A DNA stretch of 35,623 nt. It comes from a bacterium. GTDB taxonomy: Bacteria > Calditrichota > Calditrichia > RBG-13-44-9. Below are positions 22,312-32,296 of the stretch, in pieces. Every line of letters begins with the position of its first letter. The first letter of the stretch is position 1. Under the pieces are notes generated by a model that was given only the letters and a program-made list of their open reading frames with translations, made no database searches and was not told the origin of the DNA. The stretch spans positions 2,083,652 through 2,119,274 of the forward strand of contig CP070707.1 of the NCBI GenBank assembly GCA_020350205.1, given 5' to 3'. The position numbers were made by a program, and so were the translations under genes.

Positions 22312-24384
22312 ATGCAAAAAAAATATATCATTCTCCTGTTTCTCTCAATTTATTTAGTTTCGCTAAATTGTTCCATAGACGAGCCGGTGTTGCCGCGCTG
22401 GAAAACACCCTACCTTATACCGCTTATCAGAGAAACCATCATTTATTCAGATGAACTCGCCAAGGATAGCACCATCACGGTAAAAGGTGACAGTCTCTTT
22501 TTTGAAGTCGACGGAAAATTTGATGCGGATACCCTCACTTCACAGGATCTGAGCGTCGATGGAGCTGATTCAACCTCCACATTTTCCCTTGAAAAAATCA
22601 GTTTGGATTCTTTAACCCGGATTTCCACTGGGGAAGTGGGTATCACGACCTTTATTCCCTCTCTTCCCATCTTTATAAACCAGACTATCCCCTTTCCGGA
22701 CACTACCATCTCTGGGCAAGCCGTTGTGACAGACACCAGTGCATTTCGATCCATGAAGGTCAATAACGGTGTGGTATATTTGACAATTTACAATAACTTG
22801 CCATTTACCTTGTCTCCCGATCCGGTATCTGGGAATAGCATGGAAATTTCAATTTACAATCAAAACGATCGAAATCATGTTACCGATGTTATCTTTACCC
22901 AGACAATTCCCCCCGGAAGTAGCGGGACGGGTTCGGCTGATTTGGGAAACGGGGATGGATGGGTTAGAATTCCTCTGGATCTGGACTTTAATTTTCATGT
23001 GGACGCAGAAAATATATTTATTACTGAGGATTCTCTTAATGCCTGGCATCTCCAGATTGATTTATCCTTCAGGGATCTGGAAATCTCAGAAATCACGGGA
23101 AAAGTGTCATCTCAGACAGTGGATGATACCCTGCGGATTGGGATTGATCACGAAGACCAGATTATCGAAGCGCGGGTTGACAGCGGAAGCATTGAGCTAC
23201 GATTTTTTAACCAGCTGCCCCTACCCACCAGTCTGCTCTATGTGATTCCGGATATCGTAAACGACATTTCCGGGCAGCCATTGTCAGGACAGCTGTCAGT
23301 TGCTCCCAATGATAGTGTCTCACTGGGGATACAAAATCTTCAGGGGTACCGAATTTTTAATTCCCAGGCCACAGGTCAACCTCTGGACACTTTCACGGTC
23401 CTTATTGAAGCATCCACAGACACCGGCTGGGTTACCCTGAAAGCGGAAGACGAGATTTCAGCCCGGGTTGCCTCGTCCCGGATATTATTCAGTTATGTGA
23501 GAGGCATTCTGGCACCGGATTCTCTCGTACTGGAACCGCGTTTTGTAACCGACATCGCGGATTATGACCAACTTTCCCAGGGCATTCAAATTCAGGGAGT
23601 GCAACTCATTCTGGGTTTCGAAAATCAACTGAATATTCAGAATCTGGAGGTAAATGCAGTTCTAACCGGATATAAGAAAAACTCATCCGGAGATTACACG
23701 GACTCTGCCAAGGTATTCATCCAGAATCAGACTCTGGTGGTGGGACGAAATGTTCTTGTCCTGCAGGGACCGGATGTGGATGCGCTTATTAATATTTACC
23801 CGGTTGACCTGAAAACTGAGGGAACCCTTTCCTATGGCGGATTGGCAGAGGTAAGTGCGGGCGATACCCTGGGAGGAGATTATTTGCTAACCAGCCCATT
23901 CTGGATCCGCATTCATAATGCAGATCCTATTACCCTCGATCCGGATACGGTGCGGGAAGTGGATGAAAACTTTAAAGATGCTATCAGAGATACTGTTATA
24001 CAATATGCCCGCTTAAAAACAAAAGTCCTCAATGCCGGCCCGGTCAGTGGTATGATGGATATATTTTTCAGTGCAGACCGTTCACGTCAGGATCTATTTG
24101 ATACCACCGGATACGGTAAATCAGATCTCGAATTTTATAAAACTGTCAGTGTTCCTGAGGCGGTGGTCGATCCATCAACCGGTTTTGTCACCGAACCTAC
24201 TGAAACCGAATATATCATAGACCTGACGATGCAAGAACTGCAAGTCTTCGTGAAGCTTCCTTTCCGGGTCGGATTACAACTTCACCTGGATAATACAAAT
24301 GGATATGTAGTTCTGAGAGGGAGTGATTTTGTAGAATTCTCAGGATTGATAGAAACCGAAATATTATTTAAGGATTATGACTAG
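22312..24384 (+). CDS. Large putative outer-membrane lipoprotein, unknown family
   Basis: A 690-residue exported protein. The signal has a basic start (MQKKY), a hydrophobic core and Cys20 in a lipobox-like VSLNC; Asn before the Cys is unusual, so lipidation is likely but not certain. The mature part is acidic, low in Lys and Cys, and rich in Thr, Ser and Val with predicted beta-strands throughout. Repeated Ig/adhesin-like phrases such as LSVDGADSTSTFSL and DLEVNAV-type strands are present. I recognise no domain. Its last bases overlap the start region of the following barrel gene, so the two are coupled and probably work together at the outer membrane. Confidence 0.72.
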   Translation: MQKKYIILLFLSIYLVSLNCSIDEPVLPRWKTPYLIPLIRETIIYSDELAKDSTITVKGDSLFFEVDGKFDADTLTSQDLSVDGADSTSTFSLEKISLDSLTRISTGEVGITTFIPSLPIFINQTIPFPDTTISGQAVVTDTSAFRSMKVNNGVVYLTIYNNLPFTLSPDPVSGNSMEISIYNQNDRNHVTDVIFTQTIPPGSSGTGSADLGNGDGWVRIPLDLDFNFHVDAENIFITEDSLNAWHLQIDLSFRDLEISEITGKVSSQTVDDTLRIGIDHEDQIIEARVDSGSIELRFFNQLPLPTSLLYVIPDIVNDISGQPLSGQLSVAPNDSVSLGIQNLQGYRIFNSQATGQPLDTFTVLIEASTDTGWVTLKAEDEISARVASSRILFSYVRGILAPDSLVLEPRFVTDIADYDQLSQGIQIQGVQLILGFENQLNIQNLEVNAVLTGYKKNSSGDYTDSAKVFIQNQTLVVGRNVLVLQGPDVDALINIYPVDLKTEGTLSYGGLAEVSAGDTLGGDYLLTSPFWIRIHNADPITLDPDTVREVDENFKDAIRDTVIQYARLKTKVLNAGPVSGMMDIFFSADRSRQDLFDTTGYGKSDLEFYKTVSVPEAVVDPSTGFVTEPTETEYIIDLTMQELQVFVKLPFRVGLQLHLDNTNGYVVLRGSDFVEFSGLIETEILFKDYD

Positions 24385-25657
24385 ACTTATGATGAAACAG
24401 ATTATTATCTCGACCCATATTTTTCTGTTGTTTTTTCTGACGGTAGAGGTTCGCTCACAGAACCTGTATAACGCCCGCAGTCTGAGTATGGCGGGAAGTA
24501 ATGTGGCCATTACAGAGGGAAATGAATATATCGGTGGTAATCCTGCGGTGCTGGCACTTCCCAGGCATTTCAATTTTGAAATCCTTCTGGTATCAGCCCA
24601 CGCCATGTTGCGAAATAACAGTTATTCACTGACGGAGTACGACCGCTATTTTACAACCGGTGATTCACTTAGCAGTTCTGATATTGATTTTCTGGCAAGT
24701 CGTATACCCGATAACGGTTTGAAAGGTGAGTTCAATACCGATGCCAGGGCCCTGGCTTTTTATGCCAGACCTTTCAGTCTCTCCATCGGTGGCATGGGCA
24801 ATGGTTTTGTGAACTTTCCCAAAGATGCCGCCCGTATTCCATTTTATGGAAATACCGAGATCAAAGAGTTTAAAATTGACGATCTTGACGGGGAAGCCTG
24901 GGCTGGCGGATCACTGGATTTTGGAATAGCTTTCCCGATTACTGAGTGGACTCCGGCTGAATTCGACTTTTTCTCGGTGGGACTTACGGCAAAGTATATT
25001 GTGGGTTTCCAGTATGCCAATATTGAGAACTCTTCCGGCACTCTCATTACAACTGATGATTATCTGCTGGTTGACGCAATGATAGAAACCCGCCGCAGCG
25101 AAGGGGGAAGCGGCTGGGGAGTTGACCTGGGTATCCTGGGGATCTATGAAGAGGATTGGACTCTCTCCCTGCATTTTTCCAATATTCTGGGAGAGATTTT
25201 CTGGAATAAGGAAAATAAAATCGATGTTATTGAATACGAAGCGGATTCACTCTTTCACATCGAGGAAATTGCAAATTTTGCCGATAAAAGGATTGATACC
25301 ACGCTGTCGATTGGAAGATTCGGTACGGGCCTGCCGCGAAGCGCGACCTTCAGCACGGCCTACCGGCTTCAGCCCAACCTGGTTCTCACCGGTTCATATC
25401 GGCAGGGCTTTAATGAAGAACTGGGAAACACCACGATTCCCCGTGTCGCCGGTGGCGTTGAATATGCTCCTGTTCCCTTTGTTCCTTTGCGGGCCGGTAT
25501 TGCTGTCGGCGGAAAATCCAGTTTTTCGCTGGGTTTAGGATTCGGAATTGATCTCAAGTATTGGCAATTAAATATCGGATATCTGAACCATAATTTTCGC
25601 TGGTTCCGTGGTGCCCGAAGCGTGGATGTTGCAGTCACCACTCAATTTAGATTCTAA
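24377..25657 (+). CDS. Outer-membrane beta-barrel protein (DUF5723/FadL-PorV-like)
   Basis: A 426-residue outer-membrane protein. After a signal peptide (hydrophobic IIISTHIFLLFFLTV, cleavage near RSQ) comes NARSLSMAGSNVAI followed by GGNPAVLALP. This matches the N-terminal 'AMGGA...NPA' pattern of FadL-like and DUF5723/PorV-type barrels. Alternating-polarity strands continue to a terminal aromatic residue (TTQFRF), the usual Bam recognition signal. The ATG at 24377 overlaps the previous gene by 8 bases; ATG 24389 or 24392 give a tidier signal peptide. Function unknown; perhaps transport or a scaffold for the upstream lipoprotein. Confidence 0.8.
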   Translation: MTRLMMKQIIISTHIFLLFFLTVEVRSQNLYNARSLSMAGSNVAITEGNEYIGGNPAVLALPRHFNFEILLVSAHAMLRNNSYSLTEYDRYFTTGDSLSSSDIDFLASRIPDNGLKGEFNTDARALAFYARPFSLSIGGMGNGFVNFPKDAARIPFYGNTEIKEFKIDDLDGEAWAGGSLDFGIAFPITEWTPAEFDFFSVGLTAKYIVGFQYANIENSSGTLITTDDYLLVDAMIETRRSEGGSGWGVDLGILGIYEEDWTLSLHFSNILGEIFWNKENKIDVIEYEADSLFHIEEIANFADKRIDTTLSIGRFGTGLPRSATFSTAYRLQPNLVLTGSYRQGFNEELGNTTIPRVAGGVEYAPVPFVPLRAGIAVGGKSSFSLGLGFGIDLKYWQLNIGYLNHNFRWFRGARSVDVAVTTQFRF

Positions 25658-28425: not shown

Positions 28426-28510
28426 TTTTAAAATGTAGTCCAATAAATAATGCCATGTAAATCTAAAAAAATATATAACTTATAAAACATAAAAATCTCA
28501 CGGAGGCAAA

Positions 28511-30205
28511 ATGGCTGCGAAAGGTGGTAAGGGCTCCATTCTACTGGAGATCTTGATTGTTCTTATGGCCTTGTTATTAATTGCAGTAATTATTATTCCC
28601 AATCAGATTTGGGAAGAAGAGGAAACGATTACCTCCACATGTCAGCAGAACCTGAACGCACTCTATGAAGCTGAAAGGTTCTATTATCAACGCAATTCAA
28701 CCTATACCGATTCATTGGGAAAGCTTTTAACCTACGTTCAGACCGATTCGGGTTTAAATAAGCGCCAAACACTAGTTTCTTTGACCAACAGTCTGACCCA
28801 GGTACTGGATAATATCCTGAATATACCCAGTTTTCAGAATATTTCGAAAATCTCGCAAGCCGCCTTTGAAATTACCGGTGATCTGGTAGGTAATGAGCGG
28901 TATTTCAGAAAATATCCTGAAATTGATAAAACCCGGGAAGAGATTGTGAGAGAAATGACCAGACTGGATTCCAGTATTGTGTTTCCGAATTTCTCCCAGA
29001 CTAAACTTTTTGTAGATTCTTTAAGATTCCTGAAGGAATCAGTAACAGATTTTTCTCTGCAGGTCGCAACCTACAGAGCCATTAGTGCGGCTGACTCACT
29101 CTCCCTGTACTATGATAAATTGGAAAAAAACGAGTTAGTAAGAAACTGGAATGCCCAATATAGCAAAATTAACGAGTTTGTTTCAGAAATTCGGAAAACA
29201 GATATCAGCAAGGTATCCACTGTACCGGATCGCCTTAAAAAATTCATTGATCAAATCAATAAGAGTGTAGATAATTTAAATATGGCCAATACCAGCAAGG
29301 ATGCAGAGGCTTTGGGTGTCGAAAAACAAACCCTCACCGAATTGCATAAAAAATTCCTTTCCGAATTTTTCATTCTCACCAAAAGTTATAGTTTGACCAA
29401 ACTTAATGAAACCGACTCCATTCTCATCAGCTTAACACAGGAAGATTTCAATTGCCCGGACGCGAAAACAATCTATGTCTTTGATACCACCCAGAGAAGA
29501 TTGACTATCGAATGCCCAAACCTGTTAACAGAATTTCAACAGAAATTTCAACAGGATATTGGACCTATAAGGACCCTGCCCCTCTATCAGCAGGTTGATG
29601 AGATCGCAAGAATTCTGCAAAATGCAAAAAATATGCTTGACCAAAACCGGGCGGAGCTGCGCCGCTACACCGATATTTTGCTAAAAATAAAAGAGTTGCT
29701 GGTAGAAATAGACCAGATGAACAATGTTTTCCTGTACAGATATGCAAATGAGGTGAAGAATTTCATTCAGCTGGTAGACCAGGAAAACCAGCTCTCAATT
29801 CTTAAACCGGCCATCGAAGACATTTTAAATCCTCTGGATACACTTGCTACCAGAATCGAAAATCGTAATATTGCAGATTTAGAAAACCGGATGAATTATT
29901 ACAATCAAAAGCTCGCCGAAATTGATAGTGTTGTAAAGGGCATGAATTTACCCAGGCGAACCCGTGCCCAACTCACATCAAATCAAGAACCCCTGCAATC
30001 CGTATTTGATGAGCTCTCCAAAATCAAAGCAGGTTTCAATCCCCAGCAGGCCGAAGCCTTGCGTACGGCATCGAATGCTCTTGAGGAAAATTTACTGGAG
30101 GCCTTGGAAGGAGAAAGTGAACCAATTTTTGTTATTTTCAGGAAAGAACACAGGAATCACGGATATATCGCAAGTGGCGAAAAAAGCTGGGAACAAGAAG
30201 AGTGA
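28511..30205 (+). CDS. Giant pilin-like protein with long coiled-coil insertions
   Basis: A 564-residue protein with a type IV prepilin/pseudopilin N-terminus: a short basic leader ending in Gly, then SILLEILIVLMALLLIAV with Glu at position +5, as needed for prepilin peptidase and assembly. Next comes a pilin-like CQQNLNALYEAERFYYQ and YTDSLGKL. Instead of ending near 150 residues it continues with long helical, heptad-like segments; a FNCPDAKTIYVFD...LTIECPN block (about 310-340) looks like the Cys-Pro end of a GspG-type pseudopilin. More coiled coil follows to the C-terminus. GGAGG lies 4 bases before the ATG. The role is unknown; perhaps a pilus-base or secretion subunit. Confidence 0.75.
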   Translation: MAAKGGKGSILLEILIVLMALLLIAVIIIPNQIWEEEETITSTCQQNLNALYEAERFYYQRNSTYTDSLGKLLTYVQTDSGLNKRQTLVSLTNSLTQVLDNILNIPSFQNISKISQAAFEITGDLVGNERYFRKYPEIDKTREEIVREMTRLDSSIVFPNFSQTKLFVDSLRFLKESVTDFSLQVATYRAISAADSLSLYYDKLEKNELVRNWNAQYSKINEFVSEIRKTDISKVSTVPDRLKKFIDQINKSVDNLNMANTSKDAEALGVEKQTLTELHKKFLSEFFILTKSYSLTKLNETDSILISLTQEDFNCPDAKTIYVFDTTQRRLTIECPNLLTEFQQKFQQDIGPIRTLPLYQQVDEIARILQNAKNMLDQNRAELRRYTDILLKIKELLVEIDQMNNVFLYRYANEVKNFIQLVDQENQLSILKPAIEDILNPLDTLATRIENRNIADLENRMNYYNQKLAEIDSVVKGMNLPRRTRAQLTSNQEPLQSVFDELSKIKAGFNPQQAEALRTASNALEENLLEALEGESEPIFVIFRKEHRNHGYIASGEKSWEQEE

Positions 30206-30214
30206 GGCCTTAGC

Positions 30215-31141
30215 GTGGCAAAAACAGCCAGTTTATCCCTCAGAGAAGATTCTCTGATTTGGACCGAATTTATAAAAACTGGAAACAATATCCATTTAGA
30301 GCGGGCAGTCTTTGAAACACTGCCCGTCTTTATTAATCATCAAACAATCCAGCAAAAACTTACAGCAACCAAGCTCATTAACTTCCTCAAGGAAACCGTA
30401 AAGAAAAACAACCTCACTCCTAAGGATCTTCGACTCACGATTCCAGGCCGTTTTTCATTAATCAAGAAGATTGCTATTGATCCCGTAATTCCGGAGCAAA
30501 ACAGAGAGGAAGCCGTTGCGTTTGAATTTGAGAAACTATGGGAAGAATCCAATCAAAATTACCATATTTATCTTCCGGAAAATTCCACCTCAGAAAAAAT
30601 GATTACAGTAGCTATCCGTAAATCGGTTCTGAAATTCTTCAACCAGATATTTGATGAGGCTCAACTACCTGTTTCTATCATTACTTCTAGCTGCTTTACG
30701 ATTGAGGAACTTGCCACACAACTTTATCCAAATTCTAATGGTCACAACCTACTTCTTGGATGGCAACGTAGAGGATTCGACGCCATTGTAACCGAAAATC
30801 AGGCTTTCCACAGTTATGTTTTCAAAAACTACAATAACAAACTTAATCCGGTTGAGAGTGTGAGTGAATTTGATCTGGCCAACAGTTTCTCGAATCTGCT
30901 CTTTGATTTACAACACCCAAAGATTCTAAATAAACCATTGTTAGATATTCAGACAATTTATAATTACGGATATTATTTTAAACCTGAATGGCTGGATTTT
31001 ATGAGAAACAGGGTACAGGTTCCGATAAATCTTTTCAATATAGATGCCTCCAGCTTAATTACCATAACAACTAGTGAATCCGATATTCCTCCGGAGCAAA
31101 TATTTAGATATATTGAACCCATATCCAATTATTCTGAATGA
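30215..31141 (+). CDS. PilM/GspL-like protein
   Basis: A 308-residue, apparently soluble protein. The segment LTPKDLRLTIPGRFSLIKKIAID, followed by REEAVAFEFEKLW, resembles the PilM/GspL actin-like fold near its first subdomain, where pilus assembly proteins read 'hhlP...h.r.h.lP'. Other PilM-like features are weak, and the full ATP-binding motif set is not obvious, so it may be a degenerate member. The GTG start is supported by GAGG 7 bases upstream. It lies 9 bases after the pilin-like gene and 15 before the PilN/O-like gene. That arrangement matches pilM-N-O and is the main support. Confidence 0.6.
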   Translation: MAKTASLSLREDSLIWTEFIKTGNNIHLERAVFETLPVFINHQTIQQKLTATKLINFLKETVKKNNLTPKDLRLTIPGRFSLIKKIAIDPVIPEQNREEAVAFEFEKLWEESNQNYHIYLPENSTSEKMITVAIRKSVLKFFNQIFDEAQLPVSIITSSCFTIEELATQLYPNSNGHNLLLGWQRRGFDAIVTENQAFHSYVFKNYNNKLNPVESVSEFDLANSFSNLLFDLQHPKILNKPLLDIQTIYNYGYYFKPEWLDFMRNRVQVPINLFNIDASSLITITTSESDIPPEQIFRYIEPISNYSE

Positions 31142-31156
31142 CGACATTTTATTTCT

Positions 31157-32296
31157 ATGGTTAAATTAAATTATAAAACTGCAATACCCATCAAGAGTGT
31201 ACCGCCGCTAAAGGAAAAACTAAAAGCGACTCCGGAACCGGAAATGCCACCTCCGGCCGAAGAAGAGAGCTTAAAGCTCGAAGAAGCAGCCGAGGTCGTC
31301 GAAGAAACTTCGAAAGTTGAGGAAGTTGAAGAAACTTTCGAAATGGAGGAAATTGATACCTCCTCCAAGAAAACAACTGGAAAATCAAAAGAATTCAAAT
31401 TTAAAGAAGATATCTTTCAAGAATCCGGGGAAGTATTTGATGACCAGGGTAGCAGTGGATTCAAAAAGACATTCATTATTATCGTATTCGTGATTGCCAT
31501 ACTGGGAGGAGGTGGATTTTTCCTTTATAAATTTACCGGAATTTTTAACAATCTGCCCTTTATTTCTAAACCACCTACCACAACTGAAAAACCGATCGAG
31601 GTCGAATCCCCTGCCCAGGATATAAAAACACCGCCTGCTGCAACACAATCAAAACCTGCATCAACGCCTGCATCTTCTCCTATGCTTCCGATATGGCAAA
31701 AAAATATGGGAAATAATCAATTTGTAAGCTCGAATTTAGAACGGATTATGAGCCAAAAATCCAGTTTTAGTCGCTTCTCCCTGATTATTCTGACGCCCAA
31801 TGAAATCAATCTCACCATTTTATCAGATTCCCCTGATAAAATAGCCCGTTTTAAGGATGATCTAAACAAAGCTACTGGCCAGATCAATTTTCGAACGATT
31901 GACACACAGGAAAAAAATATTAATCGCAGCCGTTTGATTTTTGCAGATTTAAGTGCCCAGGTACCCGCTGGATATATTCGCCCTGCTCTGGAAACACCAC
32001 AGCGCGGTATACCGTCAGATAATCTTAAAAATGATGTCAGCAACCTTAGCCGGAAACATAAAATTAAACTGGATTATTTTAAAGCCGGCAAAAGTGTGAG
32101 CGGTGCACAATTCACACAACACTACTACTATATAAATATCAGCGGTAGCCGTGACGGTACACTGAGTTTTTTAAAAGAACTGACATCAACTTTCCCTGCA
32201 ATACAGATTAATAAAATTGCTGTGAATCCCACCAATTTAGTTACCTATTCTGATAATTCTCTGTTTATACGAATAAATTTCCTATACATGAACTAG
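31157..32296 (+). CDS. PilN/PilO-like bitopic membrane protein with acidic N-tail
   Basis: A 379-residue protein. An acidic, low-complexity cytoplasmic tail (about residues 20-90, many Glu, with Pro) precedes one membrane helix (IIIVFVIAILGGGGFFLYKF, about 107-126). A Pro/Thr/Ala-rich linker follows, then a periplasmic region. The last 70 residues, HYYYINISGSRDGTLSFLKEL, and INKIAVNP, fit the ferredoxin-like C-terminal domain of PilO/GspM ('Y..F..hL..h.r.h.h..h.h'). It would sit in the inner-membrane alignment complex with the PilM-like partner. The acidic tail is unusual for PilN or PilO and may bind the PilM-like protein. Followed after 24 bases by rsmD. Confidence 0.6.
   Translation: MVKLNYKTAIPIKSVPPLKEKLKATPEPEMPPPAEEESLKLEEAAEVVEETSKVEEVEETFEMEEIDTSSKKTTGKSKEFKFKEDIFQESGEVFDDQGSSGFKKTFIIIVFVIAILGGGGFFLYKFTGIFNNLPFISKPPTTTEKPIEVESPAQDIKTPPAATQSKPASTPASSPMLPIWQKNMGNNQFVSSNLERIMSQKSSFSRFSLIILTPNEINLTILSDSPDKIARFKDDLNKATGQINFRTIDTQEKNINRSRLIFADLSAQVPAGYIRPALETPQRGIPSDNLKNDVSNLSRKHKIKLDYFKAGKSVSGAQFTQHYYYINISGSRDGTLSFLKELTSTFPAIQINKIAVNPTNLVTYSDNSLFIRINFLYMN

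Follow-up and report, generated by a model that had tools for sequence, protein, structure and literature searches.

A conserved operon of type IV filament parts with an enlarged pilin-like protein in Calditrichota

Three genes and their genomic setting

The window analyzed here (the whole 35,623-nucleotide stretch of DNA) belongs to a Calditrichota genome, as determined by a profile search of public genomes, in which the nearest relatives by family profile were Calditrichota, including Caldithrix sp. RBG_13_44_9. The genome is approximately 92% complete, and its scaffold contains N gaps. Reading of the open reading frames (ORFs) confirmed the positions and lengths of three genes described in an earlier note on this DNA. 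They are tightly spaced and form one operon:

28511–30205, + strand: pilin-like protein of 564 aa with two helical insertions (ORF, profile match to PilA, AF2 model)
30215–31141, + strand: PilM-like protein of 308 aa, with ATP-site motifs that look degenerate (profile match to PilM)
31157–32296, + strand: PilN/PilO-like bitopic protein of 379 aa (profile and fold match to PilO)

The first ORF is preceded by the sequence GGAGG at positions 28502–28506, and the second begins with GTG. Downstream of the three genes lie rsmD, coaD, and then a phosphate acetyltransferase-like gene. No PilB, PilC, or secretin gene was found beside the operon in the loci read.

The pilin-like gene was present in 38 of the 40 Calditrichota genomes, with one copy per genome, and the orthologues that were aligned (n = 30) were 555–578 aa long. 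The two remaining genomes were still negative on profile search; these genomes are mostly metagenome-assembled, any single locus should be missing from approximately 3.8 of the 40, and incompleteness is enough to account for two misses. Wherever the contig was long enough, Calditrichota kept the order pilin-like, PilM-like, PilN/O-like, rsmD, and usually coaD. Outside the phylum, KSB1, bacterium SM23_31, and others have the same order, and Candidatus Kryptonium has part of it. The three-gene order, which the earlier note had proposed to look for in FCB genomes, thus recurs beyond Calditrichota as well as throughout it.

The genes upstream of the operon bear on one possible function. The gene directly upstream in KSB1, Kryptonium, and MAG87 codes for an HhH_3 (ComEA-like) protein with a membrane anchor, and ComEC was found in all seven genomes tested, including two with no detected pilus. 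These observations would fit a role in DNA uptake, in which the operon products form part of a competence pseudopilus or of a periplasmic DNA-handling complex together with the ComEA-like protein and ComEC. However, the upstream neighbor differs in Calditrichota, where it is an alpha/beta hydrolase gene or genes on the opposite strand; ComEC and HhH proteins are common; and Pfam searches with the window proteins alone, which were nearly silent, linked none of the operon proteins to a DNA-binding family. We consider a competence role improbable, and it is a weaker rival to the reading that we prefer than the tip-pseudopilin role discussed below.

The pilin-like protein

The first protein begins with MAAKGGKG/SILLEILIVLMALLLIAVIIIPNQIW, that is, with a short hydrophilic leader ending in Gly(−1) and followed by a hydrophobic helix with Glu at +5 and Pro at +22. 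An AF2 model based on 30 sequences (mean pLDDT 91, pTM 0.71) and the alignment of the orthologues divided the protein as follows:

28511–28534, + strand: leader-like N-terminus of 8 residues, MAAKGGKG, with Gly(−1) (alignment: G8 and S9 the same in all 30 orthologues)
28538–28696, + strand: pilin alpha-1 helix, residues 10–62, with Glu+5 (residue 13) and Pro+22 (residue 30) (AF2, alignment)
28751–29422, + strand: insertion 1, approximately residues 81–304, all-helical, with approximate boundaries (not present in the 146-aa Kryptonium protein; reduced in KSB1)
29423–29530, + strand: Cys-Pro strand block, approximately residues 305–340, NFNCPD..YVFD...IECPN (similar to CPRINEPYIM...WVECPYGHG of Kryptonium)
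29531–30109, + strand: insertion 2, approximately residues 341–533, all-helical (approximately 20 residues in KSB1, none in Kryptonium)
30110–30202, + strand: C-terminal strands and the motif NHGYI..GEKSWE, residues 534–564 (AF2, alignment)

Several lines of evidence relate the N-terminus to pilins. In the 30 aligned Calditrichota orthologues, G8, S9, P30, and W34 are invariant, and the predicted alpha-1 helix, at approximately 53 residues and with Pro22, has the form expected of a pilin. When the family profile was compared with PDB, residues 11–69 matched PilA, a solved type IV major pilin (E = 6.3e−7). The NCBIfam families PilA, ComGE, GspG, and ComGC matched the window protein with E-values from 5e−5 to 6e−4, all below their cut-offs, and sub-threshold GspG and PilA matches were also obtained with the KSB1 protein; Pfam N_methyl and Pfam T2SSK (the GspK family) did not match. 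The prepilin-like start reported in the earlier note is thus borne out, and its occurrence throughout the phylum with an invariant G8, S9, and P30 shows that it is not a chance feature of one protein. Residue +5 is variable, with K in 16 orthologues, E in 12, G in 1, and I in 1.

The remainder of the protein differs from the long coiled coil that had been predicted from the window alone. Besides the single N-terminal helix of 53 residues, the AF2 model contains many short helices, those of the insertions being mostly approximately 15–26 residues each; therefore, "helical bundle" is a better term than "coiled coil." Strands occur only at the Cys-Pro block and the C-terminus, and they are short (residues 323–325, 332–334, 535–539, 543–547, and 552–554). 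At the C-terminus, N549, G551, S559, W560, and E561 are invariant across the 30 orthologues, and the pattern NHG...SW is common to the KSB1 and SM23_31 proteins.

The homologues outside the phylum are of graded length: 146 aa in Kryptonium, 240 aa in SM23_31, 297–298 aa in KSB1, and 365 and 426 aa in others. The Kryptonium form is a bare pilin, consisting of the helix, the Cys-Pro block, and a terminal SWE. Against this form, the window protein aligns as a single pilin module (approximately residues 1–80, 305–340, and 534–564) with two helical insertions, which together amount to approximately 420 residues and make the protein approximately four times the size of a normal pilin. Because the bare form matches ordinary pilins, growth by insertion rather than shrinkage is indicated, and the giant protein probably arose in this way. 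The series from 146 to 564 residues clearly records how insertions can enlarge a pilin.

The same comparison weighs against the view that the prepilin-like start arose by coincidence in an ordinary helical protein anchored by its N-terminus. The window protein alone gave no Pfam match above cut-off, and a Foldseek search of PDB with the whole 564-aa model returned only helical noise (best E = 0.05), with no pilin and no solved relative, as such a protein might. Nevertheless, the PilA profile match, the sub-threshold GspG and PilA matches of both the window and KSB1 proteins, the bare-pilin homologue, and the linkage to PilM-like and PilN/O-like genes make convergence or artefact very hard to credit.

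A more serious rival is suggested by the GspK-type tip pseudopilins of type II secretion systems and by modular pilins, whose likeness to the window protein lies in an oversized pilin, an inserted helical domain, and a dispensable Glu5 (PMC8179133). Pilins of the GspK family exceed the usual size, have no Glu5, and contain a bulky helical domain within the pilin sheet (PMC5207764, PMC8179133), as here, and Glu5 is needed for efficient docking into the filament but not for the tip subunit (PMC5207764). Membership of a filament is accordingly compatible with a missing Glu5 and a helical insertion, because GspK-type tip pseudopilins share both. In contrast to GspK, the window protein has two insertions totaling approximately 420 residues and lacks the T2SSK match.

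The PilM-like and PilN/O-like proteins

The second protein was suspected to be PilM-like, and the profile searches agreed: a profile of 25 PilM-like proteins matched Myxococcus PilM (PDB 3jc8) with an E-value of 1.6e−13. With Pfam PilM_2, the window protein alone scored 2.7e−4, below the cut-off, and the KSB1 orthologue scored 8.6e−23, above it. When the alignment was read by eye for the ATP-binding DxG and GG motifs, no conserved columns were found, and the phosphate and adenine motifs of the actin-like site look degenerate.

The third protein has the following parts:

31157–31180, + strand: PilN-type N-terminal peptide MVKLNYKT (almost all 30 relatives have Asn/Asp near residue 5 with a hydrophobic residue after it)
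31181–31459, + strand: acidic, disordered cytoplasmic stretch (26 D/E versus 14 K/R in residues 1–100; low AF2 pLDDT)
31460–31546, + strand: single transmembrane helix, residues 102–130 (AF2, sequence)
31769–31960, + strand: first ferredoxin-like domain, residues 205–268, in a PilN-like position (AF2 strand and helix pattern)
32024–32290, + strand: second ferredoxin-like domain, residues 290–378, PilO-like (AF2 order helix, two strands, helix, two strands; PilO profile and fold)

The profile of this family matched PilO in PDB (E = 1.4e−5), and the top Foldseek match of its model was PilO (3jc8_Oa, probability 1.00), with PulL, PulM, and XcpY also among the matches. Profile, AF2 model, and Foldseek therefore agree on a single transmembrane helix and a ferredoxin-like periplasmic core, as in PilN and PilO, which upholds the PilN/O-like assignment of the earlier note. 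The "unusual acidic tail" of that note proved to be half right: the acidic stretch exists, but it forms the N-terminal approximately 100 residues before the transmembrane helix and is not a tail. For the first ferredoxin-like domain, the corresponding region of the KSB1 orthologue matched Pfam PilN with an E-value of only 0.1. Judged from sequence and model, the protein was read as the periplasmic domains of PilN and PilO in one chain, the PilO part alone being firmly identified.

Crystal structures show that PilM binds the N-terminus of PilN (reviewed in PMC5805733). The N-terminal peptides of the relatives, such as MVKINLL and MVDINLI, follow the pattern hydrophobic-[ND]-[LM] around residues 4–6, and the window peptide may be functionally equivalent to the PilM-bound PilN N-terminus. 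In two relatives (L120 and L124), the PilM-like and PilN/O-like parts are fused in a single ORF, which supports a physical pairing of the two proteins.

The pair resembles the PilM-PilN-PilO subcomplex of type IVa pili (T4aP) in its cytoplasmic PilM-like protein, PilN-type N-terminal peptide, and PilO-fold periplasmic domains, but differs from it in that the PilN- and PilO-like domains share one chain with one transmembrane helix and an acidic cytoplasmic stretch, that no PilP or PilQ lies at the operon locus, and that the PilM ATP motifs appear degenerate. It likewise shares with GspL-GspM of type II secretion an actin-like cytoplasmic part and ferredoxin-like periplasmic parts, and the fusions are GspL-like in layout; unlike GspL-GspM, the operon is usually split into a soluble PilM-like protein and a double-domain bitopic protein, and no other Gsp genes accompany it.

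Resident pilus, prepilin peptidase, and a proposed role

The pilB, pilC, and secretin genes that the earlier note had proposed to seek elsewhere in the genome were found outside the locus. An MGQQQ-type small protein, PilC, PilB, and minor-pilin-like genes lie at approximately 2.2896–2.2956 Mb, and a second ATPase, PilM, PilO, and the secretin lie at approximately 2.734–2.742 Mb. A complete pilus cluster at the operon site was rejected, since PilB and PilC are approximately 180 kb and the secretin approximately 630 kb away. The resident pilus has its own PilM/PilN-O sets, distinct from those of the operon.

No match to PF01478 or PF06750 was found in the window genome, and both families matched in the sister genome G038 and in G001. 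The absence of a prepilin peptidase, which the earlier note had named as speaking against a prepilin signal, is strong but not absolute, because the genome is incomplete and contains gaps. Outside Calditrichota, PF01478 had no match in 8 of 10 operon-bearing genomes. Five Calditrichota genomes have PilC but no PF01478, and all five carry an MGQQQ-type pilus and the pilin-like operon; PF01478 was missing from none of the 24 other PilC-bearing genomes (Fisher P = 0.0014). The chance that incompleteness removed the peptidase from all five jointly is approximately 2e−6, although these five were chosen post hoc, and a loss of the peptidase from at least five of the PilC-bearing genomes as a whole would not be unusual (P = 0.19); the weight is therefore carried by their clustering in one pilus type. 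With no peptidase found and Glu5 in only 12 of the 30 orthologues, the earlier suggestion that the protein belongs to a working pilus assembly line was not sustained.

Genomes with the operon and without any pilus were also considered. G015 and G023 (94% and 92% complete) contain the operon and gave no PilB, PilC, secretin, or PilD match. Together with G012, these cases did not reach significance (five genomes missing PilC, P = 0.33), because the incompleteness of such assemblies predicts them.

The anatomy and ancestry of the three proteins are well supported, and we hold them with high confidence: the operon is a real, conserved variant of type IV filament parts and is not an ordinary pilus operon. 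As to its function, we propose, with confidence evenly balanced, that it encodes an enlarged pilin and, with it, a derived, stand-alone T4P inner-membrane alignment complex, the pilin serving as a periplasmic scaffold or adaptor. The PilM-like protein would hold, in the cytoplasm, the N-terminal peptide of the PilN/O-like protein, a contact suggested by the homology of the two, and the tandem ferredoxin-like domains of the latter would stand in the periplasm. A pilin helix that is uncut, or rarely cut, would anchor the pilin-like protein in the inner membrane, and the helical module of the protein would face the periplasm and dock on the PilN/O-like stator. The pilin-like protein, which is probably used unprocessed, would then be a permanent scaffold or adaptor rather than a polymerized filament subunit, and the scaffold may be autonomous or may support whichever pilus the cell has.

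The scaffold reading is suggested by the lack of a prepilin peptidase in the window genome while G8-S9 is invariant, by the greater frequency of Lys than of Glu at +5, by a dedicated PilM/PilN-O set that is not accompanied by PilB, PilC, or a secretin at the loci read, by the single copy of near-constant length beside rsmD-coaD throughout the phylum, and by the L120 and L124 fusions and the lack of pilus gene matches in G015 and G023. The intact Glu5 and Gly-Ser site of the window protein itself count against it.

In the chief rival, the protein is a GspK-like tip or priming pseudopilin of the resident pilus that borrows PilB, PilC, and the secretin, with the PilM/PilN-O proteins of the operon as a dedicated docking platform. 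The window genome encodes the machine that it would borrow, as do most genomes with the operon. Against this, and unlike GspK, the pilin-like gene is not part of a minor-pilin cluster and adjoins its own PilM/PilN-O set, several host genomes lack a detectable prepilin peptidase, and the resident pili already have their own minor pilins. We judge a tip role unlikely, if less so than one in DNA uptake.

The accepted view of type IV filament machines is that they require a processed pilin, a motor, and a platform. In this operon, a pilin and its alignment proteins have stayed together and are strongly conserved, both throughout the phylum and in neighboring lineages; they have no motor of their own and occur in genomes that lack a recognizable processing enzyme, and the question of whether pilins can act unprocessed becomes directly testable. 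If the scaffold reading holds, a pilin and PilM/PilN-O may have become, in an FCB-group lineage, a permanent envelope complex that does not depend on a peptidase and is nearly universal in Calditrichota, two helical insertions having enlarged the pilin fourfold; we advance this scenario slightly more tentatively than the scaffold itself.

A text search of the open-access literature found no description of the operon, and the passages on pili in papers on Caldithrix and Melioribacter mention the main pilus genes alone. Type IV pili without pilA or pilD have been reported in Melioribacter roseus (PMC3534657), a case like the present one in that an FCB-group genome encodes pilus components but no recognized prepilin peptidase; that report differs in that its passages on pili cover pilB, pilC, pilQ, and pilT and make no mention of the operon. 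As a separate observation, the resident pilus of the window genome is a leaderless-pilin, peptidase-free variant.

Type IV pilus variant with no detected prepilin peptidase

Five loci encode a type IV pilus variant for which no prepilin peptidase was detected:
L033 5628-11578 (window genome G000, contig C1, about 2289627-2295577)
L070 6356-13784
L072, L077 and L142

The proteins at the major-pilin position begin MGQQQLLLIVLG..VG, without a leader, and none of the pilin family models matched them above the cut-off. They are encoded in company with PilC, PilB and three minor-pilin-like genes, and further with a second ATPase, PilM, PilO and a 400-aa secretin. Of the 40 Calditrichota genomes, 11 carry the variant, and it also occurs in KSB1 and Kryptonium. 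It agrees with the Melioribacter account, where pilB/C/Q/T are reported without pilA/pilD (PMC3534657). In genome G035 (locus L083, contig C31), parts of the cluster occur in at least two copies, and there are several pilin genes of the MGQQQ type.

Surroundings of the pilin-like gene

The immediate upstream neighbour in KSB1, Kryptonium and MAG87 encodes a membrane-anchored HhH_3 (ComEA-like) protein, and this neighbour is itself preceded by hrcA-grpE-dnaJ in most KSB1 loci:
L117 5551-5964
L119 2151-2624
L123 5456-5983
L120 5245-5952

Two loci have one ORF with a single TM that appears to fuse the PilM-like and PilN/O-like proteins, a layout resembling GspL:
L120 7236-8672
L124 7388-8536

Genome G021 has its pilin-like gene broken into frames of 388 and 184 aa (L041 6351-8032), through a frameshift or an assembly error.

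Other window genes

Positions 22312-25657 of the window encode a 690-aa protein that matches no Pfam family and, after it, a DUF5723 outer-membrane-like protein; the two are possibly a surface pair.
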